64,000 nucleotides of DNA from an alpha proteobacterium BAL199 (GTDB lineage Bacteria > Pseudomonadota > Alphaproteobacteria > Thalassobaculales > Thalassobaculaceae), in the NCBI GenBank assembly GCA_000171835.1, contig ABHC01000011.1, positions 1 through 64,000 on the forward strand, read 5' to 3'. The notes under the pieces were generated by a model. That model searched no databases. It was not told the DNA's origin and worked only from the letters and a program-made list of their open reading frames with translations. Made by a program: the position numbers and the translations under genes. This document shows, one piece after another, positions 6,446-26,145 of the stretch; the first letter of the stretch is position 1; each line of letters begins with the position of its first letter.

Positions 6446-8632
6446 CTAGACCGCGACCCGGCGCCGGACCGGGCCTCCCGCTTCGATCAACCGGTCGGAA
6501 GCCAAGGTGATGGTCACCGTGCTGCCCTCGTGAACGGTACTCTCGAACACGATGCTGCCACCATGAGCTTCAACGAGGTTCTTGGTGATGTACAGCCCGA
6601 GCCCGGTGCCATGATGCCGACGGGCGTGCACATTCTCAAGCTGACGGAACGGCTCGAACAGTTCGACCACGCGATTCGCCTCGACGCCGATGCCGGTGTC
6701 GCGCACGACCATCCGAAGCCGGCCGCCAGCGTCGCGTTCGGCCGTCAGGGTGACCGCGCCGCCAGACTCCGTGAACTTGACGGCGTTGGAGAGTAGGTTG
6801 ATCAGGATCTGCTTGAACGCGCGACGGTCGCCGTGAATGCCGAGACCAGGGTCGACCGTCGCCATGGCCAGCCGCAGGCCATCCGCCTCGGCTTTCTGAC
6901 GGATCATCCGGTCGCACTCATCGATCAGGCTGGCCAGGCCGAACGGCTTTTCGTCCAGCACCAGGCGGCCGGCCTCGATCCGCGAGACGTCGAGCAGGTC
7001 GTTGATGACCGCCAGCAGGTGCGCCCCGCTCTCATGGATGTACCCGGCGTACTCGCCCTGAACATCGCTGTTGGACGCGATCTGGCCGGACTTGATGATT
7101 TCGGCGAACCCGATGATGGCGTTGAGCGGCGTGCGCAACTCGTGGCTCATGGTCGCCAGAAACGCCATCTTGGCCCGGTTGGCGAGCTGCGCCTGCTCCA
7201 CCGCCTTGACCAGCGCGTCCTCGCGGCGCTTCAACTCGCTGATGTCGGTGGCGGTCAGCAGTGTGCCGCCATCGGGGGTGCGTTGCTCCCGGATCAGCAG
7301 CCACCGGTCTCCCCTGAAGATCTCGACCGTATACGGCAGGTTGCGTCGGACCTCGAGCCGCTCCTGAAGCCACGCGTCCTCGCGGCCTACTGCGGCCGGC
7401 ACTTCACCTGCCTCGATCCCGGCGCGGATGTAGTCTTCGTAGCTGATGCCAGGAACGAGGGTTGATCCCGACTTTCCCGACTGGTCTCGGTACGCCTGAT
7501 TGCACATGACCAACCGGTCGTCGCGATCCCAGAACGCGAGGCCTTCCGAACGCGCATCGAGCGCCTGGGCCAGTTGCGTGTTGGTTGCCCGAACCCGCTG
7601 CTCCGCCGTTATCAGGTCGGTCAGGTCCTTGCCGACGCCGCGGTAGCCTTGGAACAGGCCCTGTTCGTCGAAGACCGGGACACCGCTGATCGACAGGCAA
7701 CGCCTCCTTCCGTCCGCACCGATGCGATAGAACCGGAAGTCCTTGAACGGCTCCCGCCGCTGCAGGGTTGCCTCGTGGGCTGCCCACTCTTCGTCGCTAA
7801 CTCCGCGCGGTTGGGTCTCGCTGCGGGTCTTGCCGTAGTGATTTTCCGGGGTAAGCGATGAATGCTGCCAGACCGACGGAGACAGGTACGTGAAACGCAG
7901 GCCGGCGTCCTGCTCCCAGAACCAGTCCGACGACACGCTGGCGAAGTCGCTCAGACGCTGACTGGCGTGCTCGACGTCCGCTCGGGCACGCTGCGCCTGA
8001 TCGATCGCCTCGAGCGCTTGGGCGTGCCGTCGGCGCAGGGCGGCGACGATCAGCAACAGCGCCAGTGCAACGCCGTATCCGTGGACCGCTGTGAACCAGA
8101 GCGGATCTGTGCTGCTGTGCCAGCCGATCGTCGCCGATAGCAGTTCCTGTGCGGCCCAGATCACTAGGACGACGGCCATGGTTCTGCGCAGGACGCGCTC
8201 ATCGGGCGCGGTGTCCCGCCACAGCGACCAGGCTGTCACACCAAGGACAAGGCCGAAGAACAGATTGAGTGGTAGATGGATCAGCGATTCTGATAACTGC
8301 AGCGCGGTCCCGGCGGTTGCCCACAGCACCGCAATACCGGTGCCGACCACCAGGAGGCGCAGCGGACGGGTAACGTCAAGCCAGATCAGAATGCCGATCG
8401 TCAGCAACCCGACATGGCCGATCGACAGGGCCTCTGCTGCGGTGTCGGGCAGAGTTCCGTGTGCGGGACTGTCGATTAGGATGATCGACCGCACCGCGTC
8501 AAAGGCAAAGGAGGCGGACCAAAGGCCCCAGATCCGGTTGTTTCGCTCGACCACGGCGAGATACGCCATCACAGCGGCAAGCAGACCAGCACCAGTGGCT
8601 GCAGAAATCAGGGCGGCCGGAACCCACATCAA
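6446..8632 (-). CDS. Membrane-bound PAS-PAS histidine kinase
   Basis: 728 aa. Residues 1-200 hold about seven hydrophobic segments (sensor membrane domain of MASE-like layout), then a PAS at about 225-345 ([18 protein letters not shown]), a PAS_7-type domain at about 350-468, a dimerisation domain with phospho-acceptor H497 ([10 protein letters not shown]), and an HATPase with N-box ([11 protein letters not shown]), G1 (RDTGIGV), F-box (LFEPFRQ) and G2 (GTGLGLYI). No receiver domain is attached and no response regulator is adjacent, so it is an orphan kinase. GGAGG precedes the start. Confidence 0.9.
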
Positions 8633-8691: not shown

Positions 8692-9264
8692 TTACGGACG
8701 TCTCGATTGCCGCGCTTTCCATTCGTCGGCCAGCAACGCGTAGACGATCTCGTCGGTCCACTCGCCCTTGACGATCTCGTTCTGCCGGAAGTGCGCCTCG
8801 TGGCGCATTCCTAGTTTCTCCATGACCTTGGTCGACGCGGTGTTGCGTCCGTCGCAACGACCGATGATGCGGTGCAACTCCAACTCCTCGAACCCCAGCC
8901 GCAGCATGACTTCCGCGGATTCACGCGCAAAGCCGTTGCCGTGGTGATCTGGATGCAGCACGAAGCCGGTCTCGTCCTGGCGGTTATCGCGGCTGAGCCA
9001 GACAAGGTTCACGTCACCAATCAGAACTTCAGTGTCTCGCCGCTCTACCGCCAGAATCAGCTTGTCGCCCTCGCGGTGGATGACGTTCTGGCGAACGCGT
9101 TCGGATAGCGCCGTCTGAACGGCGTCGCGCGTTCGTGCGCCCCAGTACAGGAACTGCGTCACATCATCCCGGGATTGAATCCCGAGCAGGGCGTCGAGAT
9201 CGTCAGGACGAAACGGGCGAAGCCGAAGGCGCGCGGTATCGATCGGATAGGTCGGGCGTAACAT
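8692..9264 (-). CDS. GNAT-family N-acetyltransferase (RimJ/RimL type)
   Basis: 190 aa. It opens with the RimJ-like PIDTARLRLRPFRPDDLDAL, has the acetyl-CoA pyrophosphate-binding region around GFVLHPDHHGNGFARESAEV and the downstream IIGRCDGRNTASTKVMEKLGM that forms the C-terminal half of the fold. Such enzymes acetylate protein N-termini or small amines in the cytoplasm; the target is not readable. It precedes the PAS kinase on the same strand with only 59 bp between. Confidence 0.88.
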   Translation of the reverse strand: MLRPTYPIDTARLRLRPFRPDDLDALLGIQSRDDVTQFLYWGARTRDAVQTALSERVRQNVIHREGDKLILAVERRDTEVLIGDVNLVWLSRDNRQDETGFVLHPDHHGNGFARESAEVMLRLGFEELELHRIIGRCDGRNTASTKVMEKLGMRHEAHFRQNEIVKGEWTDEIVYALLADEWKARQSRRP

Positions 9265-9471
9265 CGACGGTTTTGCTCCGGATGTTGGAAAATGGCGGGC
9301 TCGGGACTGCCGCTAGACGGCTCCAGCGCCTTTTGGAGTCTTTGTTCGTTTGGATCCGCTGTCGTTCGTCGTGATCACTGTACGATTGCGACACCACACG
9401 GTACGTTAACCGTCGGCTGCGGGGCAGGGGGACGGGCAGCAAAGTAATAATTGGTGGTTCCGGAGCCCGAA

Positions 9472-10923
9472 ATGGATAGTCTCACCAAGAATCCGGCCGA
9501 CGTTCCAGTCAAGGATTCGTCACAACTATACCGCGACCTTTGTTTGGATGAAGCGATGCTGAAAGGCAATGATATCCTCTCAGCGTTACCGGCAGCGGTC
9601 TACACCACCGACGCGTCCGGGTTGATAACATTTTACAATCCGGCGGCTGTCGAGCTTTGGGGCATCGAGCCGGTCCTCGGCGACAGCACGTTCTGCGGCT
9701 CCTGGAAATTGTACTGGGCTGATGGCCGTCCGATGCGGCACGACGAGTGTCCGATGGCGCTGGCGCTGAAGGAGCGCCGGGCGATCAAGGGTGCCGAGGC
9801 AGTTGCCGAGCGTCCGGACGGGACGCGGGTGCCGTTTCTCGCCTACCCGACCCCGCTGTTCGACTCCGACGGGTCCCTCTCCGGGGCGGTGAATACGCTG
9901 GTGGACATCACGTCCCGCAAAAGCAATGAAGAGGCAGCCCAACGTCTGGCGGCGATCATCGAGTTTTCCGATGACGCGATCCTGGCGACCGACCTTGAGG
10001 GCACGATTACCAATTGGAACAGAGGCGCTGAACGGCTGTTCGGCTACACCACCGGCGAGGTGGTCGGCCGGCCAGTCACGATGTTGCTTCCCCCCGACCG
10101 GCAGGACGAGGAGCCGGCGATCCTGGCCCGCATTCGTCGGGGCGAGCACATCGAGCACTACGAGACTGTTCGCCAACCCAGGGACGGCAGTCTCGTTGAT
10201 ATCTCCCTGACGGTCTCGCCGGTGAAGAACGCCGCCGGCACGGTCGTCGGCATGTCCAAGATCGCTCGAGACATTACGGATCGGCGCCGGGCCCAGGATC
10301 AGCAACGGCTGCTGCTCAGCGAAATGAACCATCGGGTCAAGAACCTCCTGGTGTTGGCCAGCAGCGTGGTCAGCTTGAGCGCGCGGTCGGCAAAGTCGGT
10401 GACCGAGCTGGCTTCGGATGTTCGTGAGCGGCTGGTTGCACTCGCCCGAGCGCACCAGTTGACGTTGCCACGAACGTCCGACCTCGCGCTGCAGGCCGAG
10501 CAGGCCACGACGCTGCACGCGCTGATCCAGACGATCACATCGCCTTTCGTTCTGCCGGCCGAAGGCGCAGATGCTCGGGTCAGGGTCAGTGGGTCCGACG
10601 TTCCCGTGGCGGCAGGTGGACCGGTGACCAGTATCGCGTTGCTGTTGCACGAGTTCGTGACCAATGCGGCCAAGTACGGGGCATTGTCGACGCCTGAAGG
10701 GCGGGTCGATATCAATAGCAGCGAAGAGGGCGATCAGGTCGTTCTGACGTGGACGGAGAGCGGTGGGCCAGCGGTCGACCGGGGGGACGATGCAGAGGGA
10801 TTCGGCGGCGTTCTCGCGCGCGCAACCGTGAAAGGTCAGTTGGAGGGTACGATCTCGCGAGAATGGAGGCCGAACGGCTTATTCATTCGACTCTCGGTCA
10901 CGCGCCGTCGCCTGAAGGCGTGA
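9472..10923 (+). CDS. HWE-family PAS-PAS histidine kinase
   Basis: 483 aa, soluble. PAS domains lie at about 33-145 and 155-270, followed by an HWE/HisKA_2 phospho-acceptor region with H287 (EMNHRVKNLL), an N-box HEFVTNAAKYGAL and the WTESGGP tryptophan that names HWE kinases. ATG 9472 is chosen because GGAG sits 6 nt before it; an upstream TTG in frame lacks a site. HWE kinases often feed the alphaproteobacterial general stress response. The next gene is a single-domain response regulator 184 bp away, the probable partner. Confidence 0.9.
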   Translation: MDSLTKNPADVPVKDSSQLYRDLCLDEAMLKGNDILSALPAAVYTTDASGLITFYNPAAVELWGIEPVLGDSTFCGSWKLYWADGRPMRHDECPMALALKERRAIKGAEAVAERPDGTRVPFLAYPTPLFDSDGSLSGAVNTLVDITSRKSNEEAAQRLAAIIEFSDDAILATDLEGTITNWNRGAERLFGYTTGEVVGRPVTMLLPPDRQDEEPAILARIRRGEHIEHYETVRQPRDGSLVDISLTVSPVKNAAGTVVGMSKIARDITDRRRAQDQQRLLLSEMNHRVKNLLVLASSVVSLSARSAKSVTELASDVRERLVALARAHQLTLPRTSDLALQAEQATTLHALIQTITSPFVLPAEGADARVRVSGSDVPVAAGGPVTSIALLLHEFVTNAAKYGALSTPEGRVDINSSEEGDQVVLTWTESGGPAVDRGDDAEGFGGVLARATVKGQLEGTISREWRPNGLFIRLSVTRRRLKA

Positions 10924-11006
10924 CGGTCGCGGAGAAGCGAGCGGGTTGATCAGCATTGGTCTGCGCTCAGCGAGGACCACAACTCCATGCTTCGGAAAGA
11001 GTATAG

Positions 11007-11031
11007 GGAACCCGCGCCGGCGGCAGGCGTT
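11007..11031 (+). promoter_or_regulatory. Candidate EcfG-type (general stress sigma factor) promoter, GGAAC-N16-CGTT
   Basis: GGAAC at 11007-11011 and CGTT at 11028-11031 are separated by exactly 16 nt, matching the published EcfG consensus GGAAC-N16/17-CGTT. It lies 77 bp upstream of the response regulator start, in a gap otherwise without features. Position, spacing and neighbourhood (HWE kinase) agree; no experimental support is available here. Confidence 0.65.
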
Positions 11032-11107
11032 TCATTTTCTAGCGGTTTCGTCAATAAATCTGCTAAAATTGCTTAAATGCTGGTCGCCGAAAAAAGGGTA
11101 TGACGTC

Positions 11108-11482
11108 ATGGTCGGCAAGCGTCGGGTTCTGGTGATCGAAGACGAGTATCTGACGGCGATGGACCTGACCGAGACCCTGGAGGAGTTGGGGTTTGATGTC
11201 TGCGGCATTGCACGCACCGAAGACGAGGCCGTCGAAGTGGCCGCTTTGGAGCATCCTGACCTGATCACTGCGGATGTGCGACTGCTTGACGGCGACGGTA
11301 TTACCGCAGTCCGCCGCATTACCGCCGCCTCGCCTGTTCCGGTTGTGTATATCTCCAGCAGCGATGCCGATCTGAATGAACGGGCGCCCCAGGCGATCCG
11401 AGTCGGCAAACCGTTCAACGCAGCGATGATTTCCCAGGCAATCGAGACCGCGCTGCGCGCCGCGCCGAGAGCCAACCGCTAA
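11108..11482 (+). CDS. Single-domain response regulator (receiver only)
   Basis: 124 aa, one CheY-like domain. The acidic pair E11/D12, phospho-acceptor D56 (LITADVRLL), the switch serines in VVYISSSD and K101 (VGKPF) are all present. There is no output domain, so it acts as a phosphate shuttle or sink or through protein contact. It follows an HWE kinase and an EcfG-type promoter, which suggests membership of the general stress response phosphorelay. The ATG overlaps a TGACGTCA palindrome (11101-11108); ribosome binding is weak (AAAAAGGG). Confidence 0.88.
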   Translation: MVGKRRVLVIEDEYLTAMDLTETLEELGFDVCGIARTEDEAVEVAALEHPDLITADVRLLDGDGITAVRRITAASPVPVVYISSSDADLNERAPQAIRVGKPFNAAMISQAIETALRAAPRANR

Positions 11483-11520
11483 GTTCGGGACTACTGCCGC
11501 AGAATTTACGAAGAATTTGG

Positions 11521-11570
11521 TGGAGCCGAGGAGGATCGAACTCCCGACCTTCGCATTGCGAACGCGACGC
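11521..11570. repeat. Left attachment site (attL): 3' fragment of tRNA-Ala
   Basis: From TGGAGCCGAGG to GCGAACGCGACGC this matches the tRNA-Ala 3' half (positions 19100-19149) base for base. Identity stops after 11570, where the tRNA continues CTCTCCC but this copy continues AAGAAGCC. It covers the acceptor, T arm, variable loop and anticodon arm, as expected when a tyrosine integrase uses a tRNA 3' end as attB. Confidence 0.9.
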
Positions 11571-12668: not shown

Positions 12669-13038
12669 CGTTCGATTGACAGATCTGGTGGCGCGGCTGG
12701 TCGGGACATTGACCGGAGAGTTAGGGGACAGATTGCTACTAGATATATAGAGCCGTTTGTCCCCTAACTTCTGAAGCGTGTAGTTCCGTCGTCACGATTA
12801 GTTGGCTCAGGGGGCTGGCTGATGCGCGAACTCTGAGGTGACCCCTGAAAGCCGCTCAGTGCAGAGTGTTACCGGGGCCAGGGCGATCCTATGGCGCTGC
12901 GCGATTGCATCCCAGGTCGGCACCATTGGATCATTCGAACTACCCAGGAATCCAGCTTATACTGTTTCATTAGGCTTCGAGCGGCAAGACAGCTATCCGG
13001 AACACGAGCGATCGACGGCCCGGCAAGCCTAGTATTCA
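12669..13038. other. Intergenic stretch of the island with no gene seen
   Basis: 370 bp between the integrase and the convergent sulfotransferase gene. No frame has convincing codon usage or a ribosome site. The only structure found is the inverted repeat at 12719-12769. Confidence 0.6.
12719..12769. repeat. 12-bp perfect inverted repeat with 27-bp AT-rich centre
   Basis: AGTTAGGGGACA (12719-12730) pairs with TGTCCCCTAACT (12758-12769). The centre contains ACTAGATATATAG. It lies 50 bp after the integrase stop. The loop is long for a terminator; it might be a recombination-directionality or replication site. Function is unknown. Confidence 0.55.
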
Positions 13039-14680: not shown

Positions 14681-15868
14681 TCATGATGTGTCGTTCCAGA
14701 AGGACGGCCGCGCAGGCGGTGATCGCCACGACCCCGGCAGGATGGCGCGGCTTATCGCGGTGCTGCCGCAGCACGGGCAGCAGTGGTTGCGATCTGTGAC
14801 AGCCGCGTCTTCGGTCGGCGATGGATCCGGTTTGGGCGCCGGTGCGGCGAGCAGCGTGCGGCAGAGCGCCAGCTTGTCGGCGCGATGACCGTTGGCGAGG
14901 AAGCCGTAGTGGCGGATGCGGTGGAAGCCGTCGGGCAGGGTGTGCAGCAGGAAGCGGCGGATGAACTCGTCGGCGTCGAGGGTCATGACCTTTGCCTTGC
15001 CGTGATGGCGGTAGTCGCGCCAACGGAAGGCGACCTGGCGGTCGGTGACGTCGAGCAGCCGCGAGTTGGCGATCGCGACCCGGTGGGTGTAGCGACCGAG
15101 ATAGGCCAGGACCTGGGCGGGGCCGCCGAACGGCGGCTTGGCGTAGACCACCCACTCTACGCCCCGCAGCTCACGCAGCCGGCGGGTGAAGGCGGCGGGC
15201 TCGGCGAGCCCGGCGAGGTCGCCGAAGAAGCCCAGTCCGCCGGCCTCGAAGGCGGCCTGCAACTCGGCCAGGAACAGCCGCCGGAACACCCGGGACAGCA
15301 CCCGCACCGGCAGGAAGAACCCGGGCCGGCACGCCACCCAACGCGTGCCGTCGAGCGACGGGCCGCCGCCCGGCACGACGCAATGGACGTGCGGGTGATG
15401 GTGGAGGGTCTGGCCCCAGGTGTGCAGCACCGCGACGACGCCGAGCTCGGCGCCGAGGTGGCGGGGATCGGCAGCGACCACGCGCAACGTCTCGGCCGCC
15501 GCCCGGAACAGGATGGCGTAGACAGCCGCCTTGTTCTGGAAGGCGATCTCCGCGGCTGCCGGCGGCATGGTGAAGACGACGTGGAAATATCCCACCGGCA
15601 GCAGCTCGGCCTGACGGGCGGCGAGCCACTCGGCACGCGCCTGGCCCTGGCACTTCGGGCAGTGCCGGTTGCGGCAGGAGTTGTAGGCGTGACGGACGGT
15701 GCCGCAGTCCCGACACTGCTCGACATGGCCGCCGAGTGCCGCGGTGCGGCACAGCTCGACGGCGCTCATCACCCGCCGCTCGACCCGGCCCAGGTGACCG
15801 TCATGCGCGCGGCGATAGGCATCGCCGTGCCGGCGGAACACGTCCGCCAACTCCAGACCCGGAGGCAT
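14681..15868 (-). CDS. IS91-family transposase (HUH, Y2)
   Basis: 395 aa. N-terminal zinc-binding part CRDCGTVRHAYNSCRNRHC-PKC (about 48-72), HUH motif HHHPHVHCVVPGGG (about 155-168) that holds the divalent metal, and a two-tyrosine motif LAYLGRYTHR (about 255-264) whose tyrosines cut and join single strands in rolling-circle transposition. All three parts are intact and the length is normal, so it may be active. A tyrosine recombinase gene lies 9 nt upstream on the same strand. Confidence 0.93.
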   Translation of the reverse strand: MPPGLELADVFRRHGDAYRRAHDGHLGRVERRVMSAVELCRTAALGGHVEQCRDCGTVRHAYNSCRNRHCPKCQGQARAEWLAARQAELLPVGYFHVVFTMPPAAAEIAFQNKAAVYAILFRAAAETLRVVAADPRHLGAELGVVAVLHTWGQTLHHHPHVHCVVPGGGPSLDGTRWVACRPGFFLPVRVLSRVFRRLFLAELQAAFEAGGLGFFGDLAGLAEPAAFTRRLRELRGVEWVVYAKPPFGGPAQVLAYLGRYTHRVAIANSRLLDVTDRQVAFRWRDYRHHGKAKVMTLDADEFIRRFLLHTLPDGFHRIRHYGFLANGHRADKLALCRTLLAAPAPKPDPSPTEDAAVTDRNHCCPCCGSTAISRAILPGSWRSPPARPSFWNDTS

Positions 15869-15877
15869 GACGCCCGG

Positions 15878-16738
15878 TCAGGCGGGAGGCACCACCTCCA
15901 GCGCCAGCCGGTCGAGCGGGCTCTCGGTCCGCCGGATCAGCCCGTTCGAGACCTGCGTGTAGCGTGCCGTGGTCGACAGGTTGGCGTGCCCGAGCAGGAC
16001 CTGGATGATGCGGATGTCGGTGCCGCTCTCCAGCAGGTGGGTGGCGAAGCTGTGCCGCAGGGTGTGCACCGTCACCCGCTTGTCCAACCCCGCAGCAGCA
16101 CGAGCCGATCGGCAGGCGGCGTGCAGCACCTGGACGTCGATCGGCTTGCTCGCCTCGCGACCGGGGAACAGCCAGTGCTCGGGACGCGCCAGCCGCCAAT
16201 AGGTTCGCAGAATGCCGAGCAACTGCGCCGACAACATGACGTAGCGGTCCTTGCCACCCTTGCCGTGCTCGACCCGGATCACCATCCGCCCGCTGTCGAC
16301 GTCGCCGACCCGCAGAGCGACCACTTCCGACACCCGCAACCCAGCCGCGTAGGCCGTCGTCAGCGCCGCCCGGCTCTTCAGGCTCGCAACCGCCTCCAGG
16401 AACCGCACCACCTCGTCGGCGCTCAGCACCACCGGCAGATTGCGCGGTTCGCGTGCGTAGGGAATGCGCTCCGGGATCTCCCCGTGCCCGAGCGTCACGC
16501 CGTAGAAGAACCGCAACGCACAGACCGTCTGGTTCAGCGCTGCCCACGAGATCCCGGTCGACACCAGGTGGACCTGGAAGGCACGCACATCCTCCAGACC
16601 CAGACGGTCCGGCGATCGGTCGAAATACCGGCTGAACTTCGATACTGCAAGGACATAGGATCGTTGCGTCGCCGGCGACAGATTACGGACCGTCATGTCC
16701 TCGATCATGCGACGGCGTAGAGGGCTCAACTCGGCCAT
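15878..16738 (-). CDS. Tyrosine recombinase associated with the IS91 element
   Basis: 286 aa, XerC/D-like: core-binding domain 5-90 and catalytic domain 105-275. Catalytic residues: R in YAAGLRVSEV, the K of the beta hairpin in VEHGKGGKDRY, H-x-L-R-H (HTLRHSFATHLL), H in LLGHANLSTT and Y in ARYTQV. ATG 16738 has AGGAGC 4-5 nt ahead, so it is preferred over an earlier start. It is distinct in sequence from the island integrase at 11.7 kb, so the element carries two tyrosine recombinases of separate origin. Confidence 0.92.
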   Translation of the reverse strand: MAELSPLRRRMIEDMTVRNLSPATQRSYVLAVSKFSRYFDRSPDRLGLEDVRAFQVHLVSTGISWAALNQTVCALRFFYGVTLGHGEIPERIPYAREPRNLPVVLSADEVVRFLEAVASLKSRAALTTAYAAGLRVSEVVALRVGDVDSGRMVIRVEHGKGGKDRYVMLSAQLLGILRTYWRLARPEHWLFPGREASKPIDVQVLHAACRSARAAAGLDKRVTVHTLRHSFATHLLESGTDIRIIQVLLGHANLSTTARYTQVSNGLIRRTESPLDRLALEVVPPA

Positions 16739-16910
16739 CGGGGTGCTCCTGTCTGGTGATGAGGCTGCTTGCAACCGCCATCATTCCAGACAGGGGACCT
16801 CCACGGGTCACCGCCCCCTACTTCCCGCGACAGCGGGTTCGTTCAATCGCCTATGAAGCCCGCTCCTCCTGGAATTGGTCCATCCTGACGTCTTGGATAG
16901 AGGATCTGAT

Positions 16911-17011: not shown

Positions 17012-18424
17012 TCAGCCACCTCCATCCAATATGCTCGGCTTCCGCTCAATGCCAATCTTCCATCCTTGGAACTGCCGCCCGTACGCAGCCTGCATGGCGT
17101 CCCGGAGTGCCTTCTCATGGCAGAACTGGACGATGAAGCTGTCATGGATCGGCAGGCACGTGATGCCCTGATCCAGCATCGTCAGAAGAACATCCTCGGC
17201 TATGTCGGAGTCGATTCGCTGTAACCGGACGCCAGCCCCGCTGCCAAGGCTGTCGCTGATCTGAGGGTGGCGCTCACGGACGGCTGATACCGCGTCATCC
17301 CAGGACATACCTGTGTCGGTCACCATCCTGCGGGTGTCCTGACTGAAGTGGGATCTGCCGTTCACTAGAGCGTTGAAGAGTTTCTTGGCCACATCACGCG
17401 GCAAGCCATCAATCGCGTACGGATCACCATCAACGTCCAGTCCGCGCTGGTGGTACAGCATGGTCGGATGCAGGGAGGCGTAATCCAGTTCGATGGATGG
17501 AATGTCCGAGATGTAGATGAACTTCCGATACTCGCGGGGAACCCCCTGCCACCAGCCGCCGACAAGCCGGCCACCATCCGTGAACGACCCGTTGTTGAAC
17601 ACCCGATGCAGATGGTTCTGCGTGCAGAGAAGCGGACCCCGCTCGCCCTTTTGCGCCATGCGTTCGGCACATTTCCAGAAAGCATTCTCACCCGGCAACA
17701 GGCTGGCCCCACAGTCCCGCAGCTTCGCGTTGATGCGCTTCAGGTTCTCCCGCATTCGGATCGTGTCGGGGGTGTCGGGATACTCGATCTGAGGCTCTGT
17801 ATCGGCATTAATGCCGAGCCTCTTGTTGCGCCTCACAAGCTTCTTGTCGCGTCTCAGAATGATGGTCTCGGCATTCGGGGCCCGCCCTATGACGATTTCC
17901 TCGAAGTCCTCCGTATCGAACATCTCGATGAGCTTCGGAGTGGCTGCAATTCGAGTTGTGCGGCCTTTGCCTGTTACGCGAGTGTAGCTCCATCGCCGCG
18001 TGACCTGAATCAGCCCGAGAGCGGACAACCCCTCATATGCGGCTATGTAAGGACGGTATGTCAGATACAGGTTGGCATACCGCGAACCAGACCTGAACGT
18101 GCCCTTGGCGAGTGAAATGGCTAGGTCTTGCCCGCTCAGGTATGCCCGATAGAGGTTCAGCACGAAAAGCCGGACAGCCGTTCGGAACCTATCGTGCTCG
18201 GCAGGTGTGCGCGTGCGTTTTCGCAGACCGTTAGAGCGACTGTAAGCATCTATGGATTTGACTAGCAGGGATACGACAGGTCGTATCTGATCAAAAATCG
18301 TATGGCTGTGTATATCGAATCGGATTGAGTTATCATTAGATGAATTAACTAAGGAAATACTCTTCTTATTCCACTCTTTATCACTCTCTTTCTCATTACT
18401 AGGGGCAGTTAAATCCAGGGACAT
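17012..18424 (-). CDS. Polymerase-palm-like protein with winged-helix N-terminus; family unresolved
   Basis: 470 aa from ATG 18424 (AAAGGATG upstream; a TTG 5 codons earlier is possible). The first 65 residues are polar and AT-rich; about 75-170 look like a winged-helix DNA-binding domain ending in a K-G-R-T-T-R beta wing. The C-terminal half has ELDYASLHPTMLY (acid D314, as in polymerase motif A), a basic helix RDVAKKLFNALVNG (R343, K347, like motif B) and LPIHDSFIVQ (H427, D428, like motif C of family A and T7-type RNA polymerases). Motif A resembles family B (DxxSLYP), motif C family A. Similar proteins occur unannotated in other islands. A replication or primer-extension role for the element is inference. 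Confidence 0.55.
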   Translation of the reverse strand: MSLDLTAPSNEKESDKEWNKKSISLVNSSNDNSIRFDIHSHTIFDQIRPVVSLLVKSIDAYSRSNGLRKRTRTPAEHDRFRTAVRLFVLNLYRAYLSGQDLAISLAKGTFRSGSRYANLYLTYRPYIAAYEGLSALGLIQVTRRWSYTRVTGKGRTTRIAATPKLIEMFDTEDFEEIVIGRAPNAETIILRRDKKLVRRNKRLGINADTEPQIEYPDTPDTIRMRENLKRINAKLRDCGASLLPGENAFWKCAERMAQKGERGPLLCTQNHLHRVFNNGSFTDGGRLVGGWWQGVPREYRKFIYISDIPSIELDYASLHPTMLYHQRGLDVDGDPYAIDGLPRDVAKKLFNALVNGRSHFSQDTRRMVTDTGMSWDDAVSAVRERHPQISDSLGSGAGVRLQRIDSDIAEDVLLTMLDQGITCLPIHDSFIVQFCHEKALRDAMQAAYGRQFQGWKIGIERKPSILDGGG

Positions 18425-19096
18425 CTGGCATCCTTTCAAGTTCGTTACATGGGCGGCATTCCAATCTGGATGATTAGAGACAGCTAATTCGACTTACGCG
18501 CAGGAACGAGTCGTCCGCGCTCCTAGAGACCGGAGCCCGAACCACCATGCCCGCATTTTCGGGGATCAAGCCGTTCGCGTATTGCTAGCGGCTCGCAGTC
18601 GGTCAGATATGGAATCAGCGATTCAGACTTCAAGCCCACGCCCGAACATAAACAATTTGAGAACTCAGGAGCCTTCCGCGTCACGTTCAGCAGCTAGCGC
18701 CAGCATCCGTGCGAACACCCCTGCCGAACCTCGCCAAACCCTGCACGCACGCAGCCCGCATCTATGCCAGCCCCCTCAGCAAGCCCGCAGGACGCCTACA
18801 GCACAGGATGCCCTCTGTAGCCGCCTGTAAGCCCCCCCTGACGGGCATGGCTTTGTTGCCGAACTCCAACCAGCTAATTCCCGGCAGAGGCCATATATGA
18901 GCTACCTAGGGGGGTGGAGTGGCCCATGCGTACCCCCGTGCCGCACGAAGTGAACGGACGCTCACCTATGTTGGCAACGGGTGGCCGGGAGCGGGCTTGG
19001 GCACACTCCTGTCACAGTGGGCACAGCAGAACGGCTCGTATCAGCCCGCAAGGCAGGCTACAATCCTGCTGTCAGTGCCGGAAAACCTGGAGAAAT
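18425..19096. other. Island right-end intergenic region, no gene seen
   Basis: 672 bp between the polymerase-like gene and the tRNA. The first 70 bp upstream of that gene are AT-rich and should hold its promoter. The rest shows several short frames without ribosome sites or family features. A replication origin or excision site of the element could lie here, but no iterons were found by eye. Confidence 0.5.
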
Positions 19097-19172
<76 letters not shown>

Positions 19173-25442: not shown

Positions 25443-25471
25443 TTGACGATTGGCAATAATTGCCAATATCC
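25443..25471 (+). promoter_or_regulatory. Probable promoter/operator of the ParDE pair
   Basis: A perfect inverted repeat ATTGGCAA-TAA-TTGCCAAT (25449-25467) lies 33 bp before the antitoxin ATG. A TTGACG (25443-25448) and ATATCC (25466-25471) at 17-nt spacing could be -35 and -10, so the palindrome sits inside the promoter, as expected for ParD autoregulation. Confidence 0.6.
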
Positions 25472-25499
25472 TTGGCCGTCCCTTTCGGAGGATCGCGGC

Positions 25500-25787
25500 A
25501 TGCCGACCCGCAACGTCAACCTGACTGATGAACTCGACCGTCTCGTTGACGACGAAGTGCGCTCGGGGCGGTTCCAGAACGCCAGCGAAGTGGTGCGCGC
25601 CGGGCTGAGGATGTTCGAGCAGCAGCGGGACGAGCAGGTGGCACGGCTCGCGCTCCTGCACCGGATGCTCGACGAGGCCGACCAGGGTGAATCCGTGGGG
25701 ATCGACGGCATCGAAGACTTTGTTGACGACGTGATGGCCGAACTGGACGCCGAGAACCCGACGGCTCCGGCCGACCGGCGTGGTTAG
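25500..25787 (+). CDS. ParD-like antitoxin (type II, ribbon-helix-helix)
   Basis: 95 aa. N-terminal [20 protein letters not shown] followed by [19 protein letters not shown], typical of ParD. The acidic C-terminal tail ([15 protein letters not shown]) would wrap the toxin. GGAGG 9 nt before the ATG. The coding end overlaps the toxin start by 8 nt. It likely represses its own promoter through the palindrome just upstream. Confidence 0.88.
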
Positions 25788-26145
25788 GCTGACTCGGTCG
25801 GCGGCGTTCCTCGACGACCTGAAAAACACACTCAGGACTAGCGAGGAGAGTTGGGGCCGCGACGGGCGCGTCCGCTACGCTCTACTGGTGACGCGGGCGC
25901 TTAACGACCTTGCCGGCGATCCCAGCCGCAACGGGGTGCGCGAGGTTTCGGGGCGGCCGGGTGTGTTCGGATACCACCTTCGGCACAGCCGGGACGCGGT
26001 GCCGACTGGTCATCGGATCGGTCGGCCGCGCCACGTCGTGTTTTTCCAACTCGGCGATGACCAGCAGGTCGTTCGGCTGTTGCGGTTGCTCCACGACCGG
26101 ATGCTGCCGAGCCTGTGGATGGCGTCCGGCGACGACGTTCTCTGA
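25780..26145 (+). CDS. ParE/RelE-superfamily toxin
   Basis: 121 aa from GTG 25780, translationally coupled to the antitoxin. The ParE/RelE-like pattern is [13 protein letters not shown] at the start, VREVSGRPGVFGYHLRH in the middle and RPRHVVFFQLGDDQQVVRLLRLLHDRM near the end. ParE toxins poison DNA gyrase, RelE toxins cut mRNA; which applies cannot be told. The pair appears intact. Confidence 0.82.
   Translation: MVRLTRSAAFLDDLKNTLRTSEESWGRDGRVRYALLVTRALNDLAGDPSRNGVREVSGRPGVFGYHLRHSRDAVPTGHRIGRPRHVVFFQLGDDQQVVRLLRLLHDRMLPSLWMASGDDVL

Follow-up and report, generated by a model that had tools for sequence, protein, structure and literature searches.

A compact superfamily-A polymerase of the TV-Pol/divPolA2 group with a putative role in initiating replication of a small tRNA-Ala(CGC) integrative element in alpha proteobacterium BAL199

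A 470-aa protein encoded in a small element integrated at tRNA-Ala(CGC) of alpha proteobacterium BAL199 was identified, from its modelled fold and conserved residues, as a superfamily-A polymerase of the TV-Pol/divPolA2 group, which is predicted to be catalytically competent and is reasonably likely to initiate replication of the element. The stretch of DNA analysed (64,000 nt, contig ABHC01000011.1; hereinafter referred to as the window) contained the whole element, and the polymerase gene was its only recognisable nucleic-acid-synthesis gene. Dozens of related elements with the same layout were found in marine bacteria, and these are probably minimal elements copied by their own polymerase.

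The element was 7.6 kb in size with exact ends (Table 1), marked by a 54-bp direct repeat that consisted of 53 nt of the tRNA-Ala(CGC) 3' end plus one base. Two congeneric genomes had an intact tRNA-Ala(CGC) beside an orthologous kinase gene and no element. In the congener G385, the 54-bp site ran into 8 bp of the left flank, followed by an orthologue of the acetyltransferase gene located at 8692-9264 in the window. Integration was evident from this anatomy, i.e., the repeats bracketing the integrase and polymerase genes, the integrase itself and the empty sites in congeners, and the tRNA-integrated element with an integrase that a preliminary description of the window had recognised from the sequence was confirmed. 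A PAS sensor kinase and response regulator pair (9451-11482), located between the acetyltransferase gene and the attachment site, was missing there in G385 and may be a separate insertion. Elsewhere in the window, two overlapping small ORFs (25443-26145) beside an argG-like gene resembled, by eye, a ParD/ParE-type toxin-antitoxin pair.

The genome contained five near-identical full copies of the IS91-family insertion, counting the one in the element, and one partial copy. The polymerase gene was single-copy in this genome, and its G+C content was 55.8% (65.6% for the window). No iterons were found in the 656-bp stretch upstream of the polymerase gene (single-strand fold z, -1.4), and neither an OB-fold SSB partner nor a D5-like helicase was detected by Pfam in the window element.

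Table 1. Features of the tRNA-Ala(CGC) element and its target in the window.
Feature	Position	Strand	Evidence and remarks
tRNA-distal attachment repeat, 54 bp	11517..11570		Exact copy of tRNA-Ala(CGC) 3' part; direct repeat with 19096-19149
Tyrosine integrase, 335 aa	11661..12668	+	Pfam PF00589 E 1.1e-20; PHROG integrase E 4.6e-51
Inverted repeat, 19 nt, 13-nt loop, 84% complementary	12719..12769		Directly behind integrase; terminator or other site
Probable cargo gene, 353 aa	13039..14100	-	Very weak sulfotransferase resemblance, PF13469 E 0.043, below cut-off; G+C 56.1%
IS91-family insertion (Y2 transposase and adjacent tyrosine recombinase)	14681..16774	-	NF033538 E 5e-133; inside element, not core
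Polymerase ORF, 470 aa	17012-18424	-	ATG start; N-terminal domain ~31-210, hairpin R286, motif A D314, fingers R343/K347, motif C H427-D428
Stretch without recognised gene, 656 bp	18440..19095		Upstream of the polymerase ORF, up to the tRNA; may be an origin or promoter region
tRNA-proximal attachment repeat, 54 bp	19096..19149		Inside tRNA-Ala
tRNA-Ala(CGC), integration target, still intact	19097..19172	-	ARAGORN; Rfam RF00005

The polymerase ORF, for which a TTG at 18439 provides an alternative upstream in-frame start (475 aa), contained ELDYASLHPTMLY (D314), RDVAKKLFNALVNG (R343/K347) and LPIHDSFIVQ (H427/D428), a three-motif match far beyond chance. When 25 divergent homologues (18-33% identity) were aligned, G285, R286, R300, D314, K347 and D428 were invariant, and E312, D334, Y336, R343 and H427 were at least 90% conserved. 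In a larger alignment of 98 members, R286 and E312 were retained in 98/98, D314 in 97/98 and D334 in 90/98; for R343 (93/96), K347 (96/96) and D428 (94/95), the denominators are the members with letters at that column. The motif residues of the preliminary description (D314, R343, K347, H427 and D428) were therefore real, in the order given there, and nearly invariant across ~100 homologues; D314 and D428, whose conservation in homologues it had proposed to check, were conserved in both alignments. R343 and K347 were separated by the spacing of the Pol I RxxxK pair (four residues), and we take them to be the O-helix R-x3-K, i.e., R754/K758 of Pol I and R627/K631 of T7 RNAP. Judging from these residues, the conserved set is that of superfamily A, with the TGR-hairpin Arg, the motif A Asp, the O-helix R-x3-K and the motif C H-D.

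Profile-profile comparison with ten alphaproteobacterial Pol I sequences placed GGR on TGR, Q on NLQNIP and motif A on DYSQIE (E 0.0037, probability 8.8%), and comparison with T7, SP6 and KASIA RNA polymerases placed motif C on IHDSF (E 0.013, probability 3.3%); both used shallow profiles and are weak alone. The polymerase had no Pfam match above the cut-off, with PF00476 (DNA_pol_A) giving none at E up to 1, and a PF00476 search of this genome retrieved the host Pol I only. No match was obtained in NCBIfam, and nothing meaningful among PDB sequences. A phage family of unknown function, phrog_4756, matched the polymerase over its full length (E 7.3e-40), and the phage RNA polymerase family left a trace around motif C (E 0.46).

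The AlphaFold2 model of the protein, built from a natural alignment, had a mean pLDDT of 84.3 and a pTM of 0.84. Foldseek against the PDB gave 52 chains at E up to 1e-3, and all 50 listed were Pol I-type polymerases. With VIA-align, yeast mitochondrial RNAP ranked top (Z 13.3; 3.8 A over 247 residues), followed by apicoplast DNA polymerase (13.0), T7 DNAP (12.3) and T7 RNAP (12.2). These Z differences are about the tie margin of the tool, and the modelled structure is thus compatible with DNA and RNA synthesis alike. In the model, hairpin R286 was located on a strand (284-289) and R343 began a helix (343-354) in the fingers, and two helices (219-236 and 248-258), which may be the counterpart of the thumb of two antiparallel helices in TV-Pols, preceded the hairpin. 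By this model, the protein is a superfamily-A (Pol I/T7-RNA-polymerase-like) polymerase, and the palm that structure prediction and Foldseek had been proposed to look for was present. The preliminary description had seen mixed family motifs, reading motif A (D-x-x-S-L-x-P) as family B; this reading was rejected because of the superfamily-A fold and the fingers RxxxK, and the layout is instead a plain superfamily-A one. The likeness to family B at D+5 concerns the steric-gate position, which is common to many polymerases. Matches to archaeo-eukaryotic primases or reverse transcriptases were found neither in Pfam and NCBIfam nor among the Foldseek matches listed, and these identities were dismissed.

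The N-terminal domain alone (residues 31-212) was modelled with a pLDDT of 84.9 as helices plus a beta-hairpin. Its best Foldseek match was a plasmid Rep-DNA complex (5kbj, E 0.05), with MarR/PadR regulators further down, and its best VIA-align match was to eS19-type ribosomal proteins (Z 7.2); the N-terminal region of T7 RNAP gave Z 6.1 over 108 residues. Of the fusion of a compact polymerase to a winged helix that had been put forward, the polymerase part was upheld by the superfamily-A fold and the conserved catalytic residues, and the winged helix is plausible from weak structural resemblance that is suggestive only.

Two positions near the active site pointed to a variant of the Pol I arrangement. 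The residue at D314+5 (H319) was His in 94/98 members and that at R343+12 (N355) was Asn in 95/98; these presumably correspond to Pol I E710 and to Pol I Y766/T7 RNAP Y639, respectively. Some Vibrio phage members had Glu at D+5 together with FDE in motif C, and two of these had Tyr at R+12, which supports the assignment of these residues to the Pol I slots and suggests that H is coupled to HDS and E to DE. The variant may reflect changed sugar selection, and H319, N355 and HDS in the window protein would point, without settling it, to a primase or to RNA-primer synthesis rather than to DNA synthesis in bulk.

A homologue of the polymerase was present in 25 of the 385 alphaproteobacterial species sampled (~6.5%, own genome counted), and a phylum-wide profile search detected the polymerase in 24/398 genomes, all but one of which were Alphaproteobacteria. 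Scans of IMG/VR and of genome contigs with the single protein yielded no relatives; the alignment of homologues of the window protein (A1) was too divergent as a scan query, and 237 relatives, mostly in Rhodobacterales, SAR116 and Rhodospirillales hosts, were recovered with a tighter alignment. Several homologues had in-frame stops (e.g., loci L005 and L010, with a TGA between motifs B and C in the latter), which suggests decaying integrated copies.

We compared 103 homologous loci from species genomes, plasmids and named assemblies (237 relatives there, 79 loci kept). Four loci had been fetched twice, leaving 99 distinct ones. The polymerase was bracketed by tRNA-derived direct repeats of 17-77 bp in 38/103 loci, with no duplicate among the 38, and a recombinase lay inside 36 of these. 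None of 20 control stretches taken from these genomes had tRNA-derived repeats, and one had a tyrosine integrase; the loci themselves had been selected for containing the polymerase. A tRNA was present in 66/103 loci and 5/20 control stretches. The recurrence of integrase and tRNA with homologues, which the preliminary description had proposed to survey, was thereby established. The repeats derived from tRNAs for Val, Gly, Leu, Gln, Thr, Ser, Asn, Ala, Arg, Glu and Cys, and the bracketed elements were ~5-17 kb (median span, 9.3 kb); the 2.4-kb locus without a recombinase (L074) is the doubtful one of the 38. Among loci with a full-length polymerase, 50/60 encoded a tyrosine integrase and 51/60 a tyrosine or serine recombinase (controls, 1/20). 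In 27/35 elements, the integrase was no more than 1 kb away from one of the ends.

In 31 of 37 elements examined, no P-loop (Walker-A) protein was encoded besides the recombinase and the polymerase, and hence a helicase is not part of the element kit. The cargo was variable, including DNA methyltransferases, restriction and HNH nucleases, a caspase-like peptidase, OLD-like ATPases and RTX proteins; no capsid, terminase or packaging genes were among the top cargo families. The polymerase and integrase genes were nearly the sole genes of the smallest bounded elements, L122 (4.9 kb) and L137 (5.5 kb). Nearly the only cargo of L122, a tRNA-Gly element, was a caspase-domain peptidase (7449-8510; Peptidase_C14, E 7e-11), which is a candidate defence effector. 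Four SAR116 tRNA-Val elements (L070, L078, L086 and L087) had a common small-gene group beside the polymerase, one gene of which showed weak YdjM membrane-protein similarity. The polymerase gene had an RNase HI gene as its direct neighbour on the same strand in three genomes that are unrelated (L034:10681-11175, L040:10816-11334 and L048:10616-11095), hinting at RNA-DNA hybrid processing; its presence in just 3/103 loci ruled out a constant partnership. A fixed association of the polymerase with this integrase clade was likewise discarded: ~6/28 integrase relatives (E up to 1e-40) were within 10 kb of a polymerase match, and none of 20 re-examined integrase loci contained a polymerase. Since the clade is not tied to the polymerase, the latter could be cargo in some elements.

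Polymerase relatives were also found in 225 phage records by tblastn (Rheinheimera 115, Vibrio 89, others), and the phage copies had ~21-31% identity to the window protein. The family thus extends to Vibrio, Aeromonas, Shewanella, Rheinheimera and ICP1 phages. Over most of its length, the A1 profile matched AUR84708, the divPolA2 structural representative, for which the gene coordinates agreed, and the Barba18A gene (E 1.4e-36 and 9.8e-44, respectively). The divergent ICP1 member, annotated as hypothetical (Vibrio phage ICP1_2006_C 52387-54048; L221:2014-3675), gave a profile E of 4.2e-39. On these sequence matches, divPolA2 and the chromosomal genes are judged to be one family. The phage members formed a supported clade with 5 phages (0.96) and not with 11. 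Chromosomal copies were nearly all in alphaproteobacterial hosts, and the phage copies came from phages of gammaproteobacterial hosts. KASIA encoded a family protein in addition to a Pol I, an ssRNAP, a primase and a helicase of its own, which agrees with the published view that divPolA2 is not the phage replicase (PMC11348598). The phages carry a regular DNA polymerase alongside it, with paralogues, which argues for an accessory role there.

The preliminary description had also suggested an undescribed element type, which is not supported: the prediction of mobile elements that combine a TV-Pol with lambda-type integrases dates from 2008 (PMC2579912), and the phage branch was named divPolA2 in 2024 (PMC11348598). 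In that 2008 study, Iyer, Abhiman and Aravind defined TV-Pols by an Arg in the hairpin, a pair of Asp in the palm, an Asp and an RxxxK motif in the fingers, and a thumb of two helices; they placed many near lambda integrases, resolvases or transposases, and predicted prim-pol activity (PMC2579912). The window family is compared with TV-Pol by features, rather than by the sequences of named members. It shares the compact superfamily-A polymerase with an invariant hairpin Arg (R286), two palm Asp, and the fingers Asp (D334) plus RxxxK. Common to both are also the mobile-element setting, with lambda-type integrases, resolvases and transposases by restriction-modification genes, the prominence of alphaproteobacterial hosts, and an extra N-terminal domain, which in TV-Pols is found in a subset. 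The delimited elements differ in having no D5-type helicase and in integrating at tRNA genes with tRNA-derived ends, which are absent from the 2008 main text (PMC2579912), and the N-terminal domain, predicted to be all-helical in 2008, contained a beta-hairpin in our model. The Microcystis phage Ma-LMM01 TV-Pol gave no profile match. A structural match to the virophage replication protein of Zamilon (V6BPG7, E 6e-5) was detected.

With divPolA2 of Caudoviricetes, as presented in its section of the 2024 paper (PMC11348598), the window protein has in common the Pol A palm without an exonuclease, an unrelated N-terminal globular domain and mitochondrial RNAP among the top structural matches, in addition to its homology to AUR84708 and Barba18A. 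In contrast, divPolA2 is phage-encoded beside a regular DNA polymerase, and the active site of AUR84708 is Pol-I-like (E at D+5, FDE), whereas the window protein has H and HDS. That section makes no link to chromosomal elements or to TV-Pol. The CcPol-MP/PolA-SSB primases of SCCmec and other Bacillota elements likewise occur on mobile elements of the chromosome as an A-family polymerase accompanied by a site-specific recombinase, but keep the Pol I exonuclease domain wholly or in part and come with an OB-fold SSB, a D5-like helicase and mostly serine recombinases (PMC7581432, PMC10061031); the window family has another N-terminal domain, mostly tyrosine integrases and no helicase. CcPol, which is counted among TV-Pols, has been experimentally proven to extend primers alone and to prime DNA de novo with MP (PMC7581432). 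Pipolins resemble the window element in tRNA integration, a tyrosine recombinase and an own polymerase proposed to be self-priming (PMC7385651), but their polymerase is of family B (piPolB); the window element is not a pipolin, because its polymerase has a superfamily-A fold and motifs. T7-like single-subunit and mitochondrial RNA polymerases share the fold superfamily (Z ~12-13) and an HDSF-type motif C, whereas the window protein is about half their size, has no recognised promoter-specificity elements and carries His, not Gly, at D+5. The family as such is thus known. The delimited helicase-poor tRNA elements, the chromosomal-phage link and the division of the family into members with an RNAP-like active site (H, HDS) and members with a Pol-I-like one (E, FDE) were not found described in the open-licence literature searched.

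In the course of events that we favour, the integrase would excise the element as a circle at the tRNA repeat, and the polymerase would prime, and probably also extend, synthesis on the circle. The host helicase and replisome would then finish replication, and the copies would let the element persist or move, with the circle re-integrating at a tRNA 3' end. Of the self-replicating or self-repairing element suggested earlier, the element and its compact polymerase were borne out; for replication, we infer an initiating role of the polymerase from its being the sole nucleic-acid-synthesis gene and from the CcPol precedent. The lack of an encoded helicase and of iterons upstream of the gene speaks against a role in replication. 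In the main rival explanation, possible though rather unlikely, the protein is a single-subunit RNA polymerase that transcribes element genes or makes an RNA primer or R-loop at an element origin for extension by a host DNA polymerase. T7 RNAP-class polymerases open DNA without a helicase, and the top structural match, tied with Pol I, is a mitochondrial RNAP. Motif C is HDS(F) as in T7 RNAP, and ~95% of the 98 members have H319/N355 where Pol I has its sugar-gate pair E710/Y766, with a phage subset keeping E with FDE. The bulky His at D+5 does not fit, however, as ssRNAPs have Gly there, and no promoter specificity element was identified. The resemblance of the N-terminal domain to that of T7 RNAP would favour this explanation but is within the range of unrelated folds, and the adjacent RNase HI genes, which would do the same, are confined to the three loci noted above. 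A primase using ribonucleotides would fit the initiating polymerase and the RNA polymerase alike.

In another explanation, the polymerase would be cargo that serves in repair or against phages, and unrelated integrative elements would carry it along with restriction-modification and other defence genes. The methyltransferases, restriction enzymes and HNH nucleases in the same elements would agree with this, as would the caspase-like peptidase and the OLD-like ATPases. The integrase clade often lacks a polymerase, and phages carry the family, with paralogues, beside their own DNA polymerase. We regard this as improbable, as L122 and L137 hold little beyond polymerase and integrase, and these two genes recur where the others vary. 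Least probable, with only a slight chance, is a satellite with a helper phage, whose polymerase would have been acquired from a phage and would replicate the satellite during infection. The size and the tRNA integration are like those of phage-inducible islands, and the family is common to the phages listed above; nevertheless, packaging and structural genes are missing from the top cargo families, the hosts of chromosomal and phage copies belong to different classes, and the phage copies are distant from the window protein.

The polymerase as initiator of its own element's replication may be extended to a bolder and more doubtful proposal, namely that widespread 5-15 kb tRNA-integrating elements replicate with a single helicase-independent superfamily-A enzyme, switched from a Pol-I-like (E, DE) to an RNA-polymerase-like (H, HDS) active site, that RNA-primes its own element. 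If true, bacteria would have one more type of primase next to DnaG and AEP, and the enzyme would be an extant intermediate form linking Pol I with the T7-type RNA polymerases. By 2020, no TV-Pol outside SCCmec was known as biochemically characterised (PMC7581432). The locus described here is a small environmental case whose ends are known exactly and for which relatives have empty sites; it is joined by 37 further loci with tRNA-derived ends, and it makes priming without a helicase by such polymerases directly testable. It also joins the TV-Pol, divPolA2 and integrative-island literatures, whose link on this point was not found in the open-licence literature searched, and the active-site switch may bear on the divergence of RNA polymerase and Pol I.
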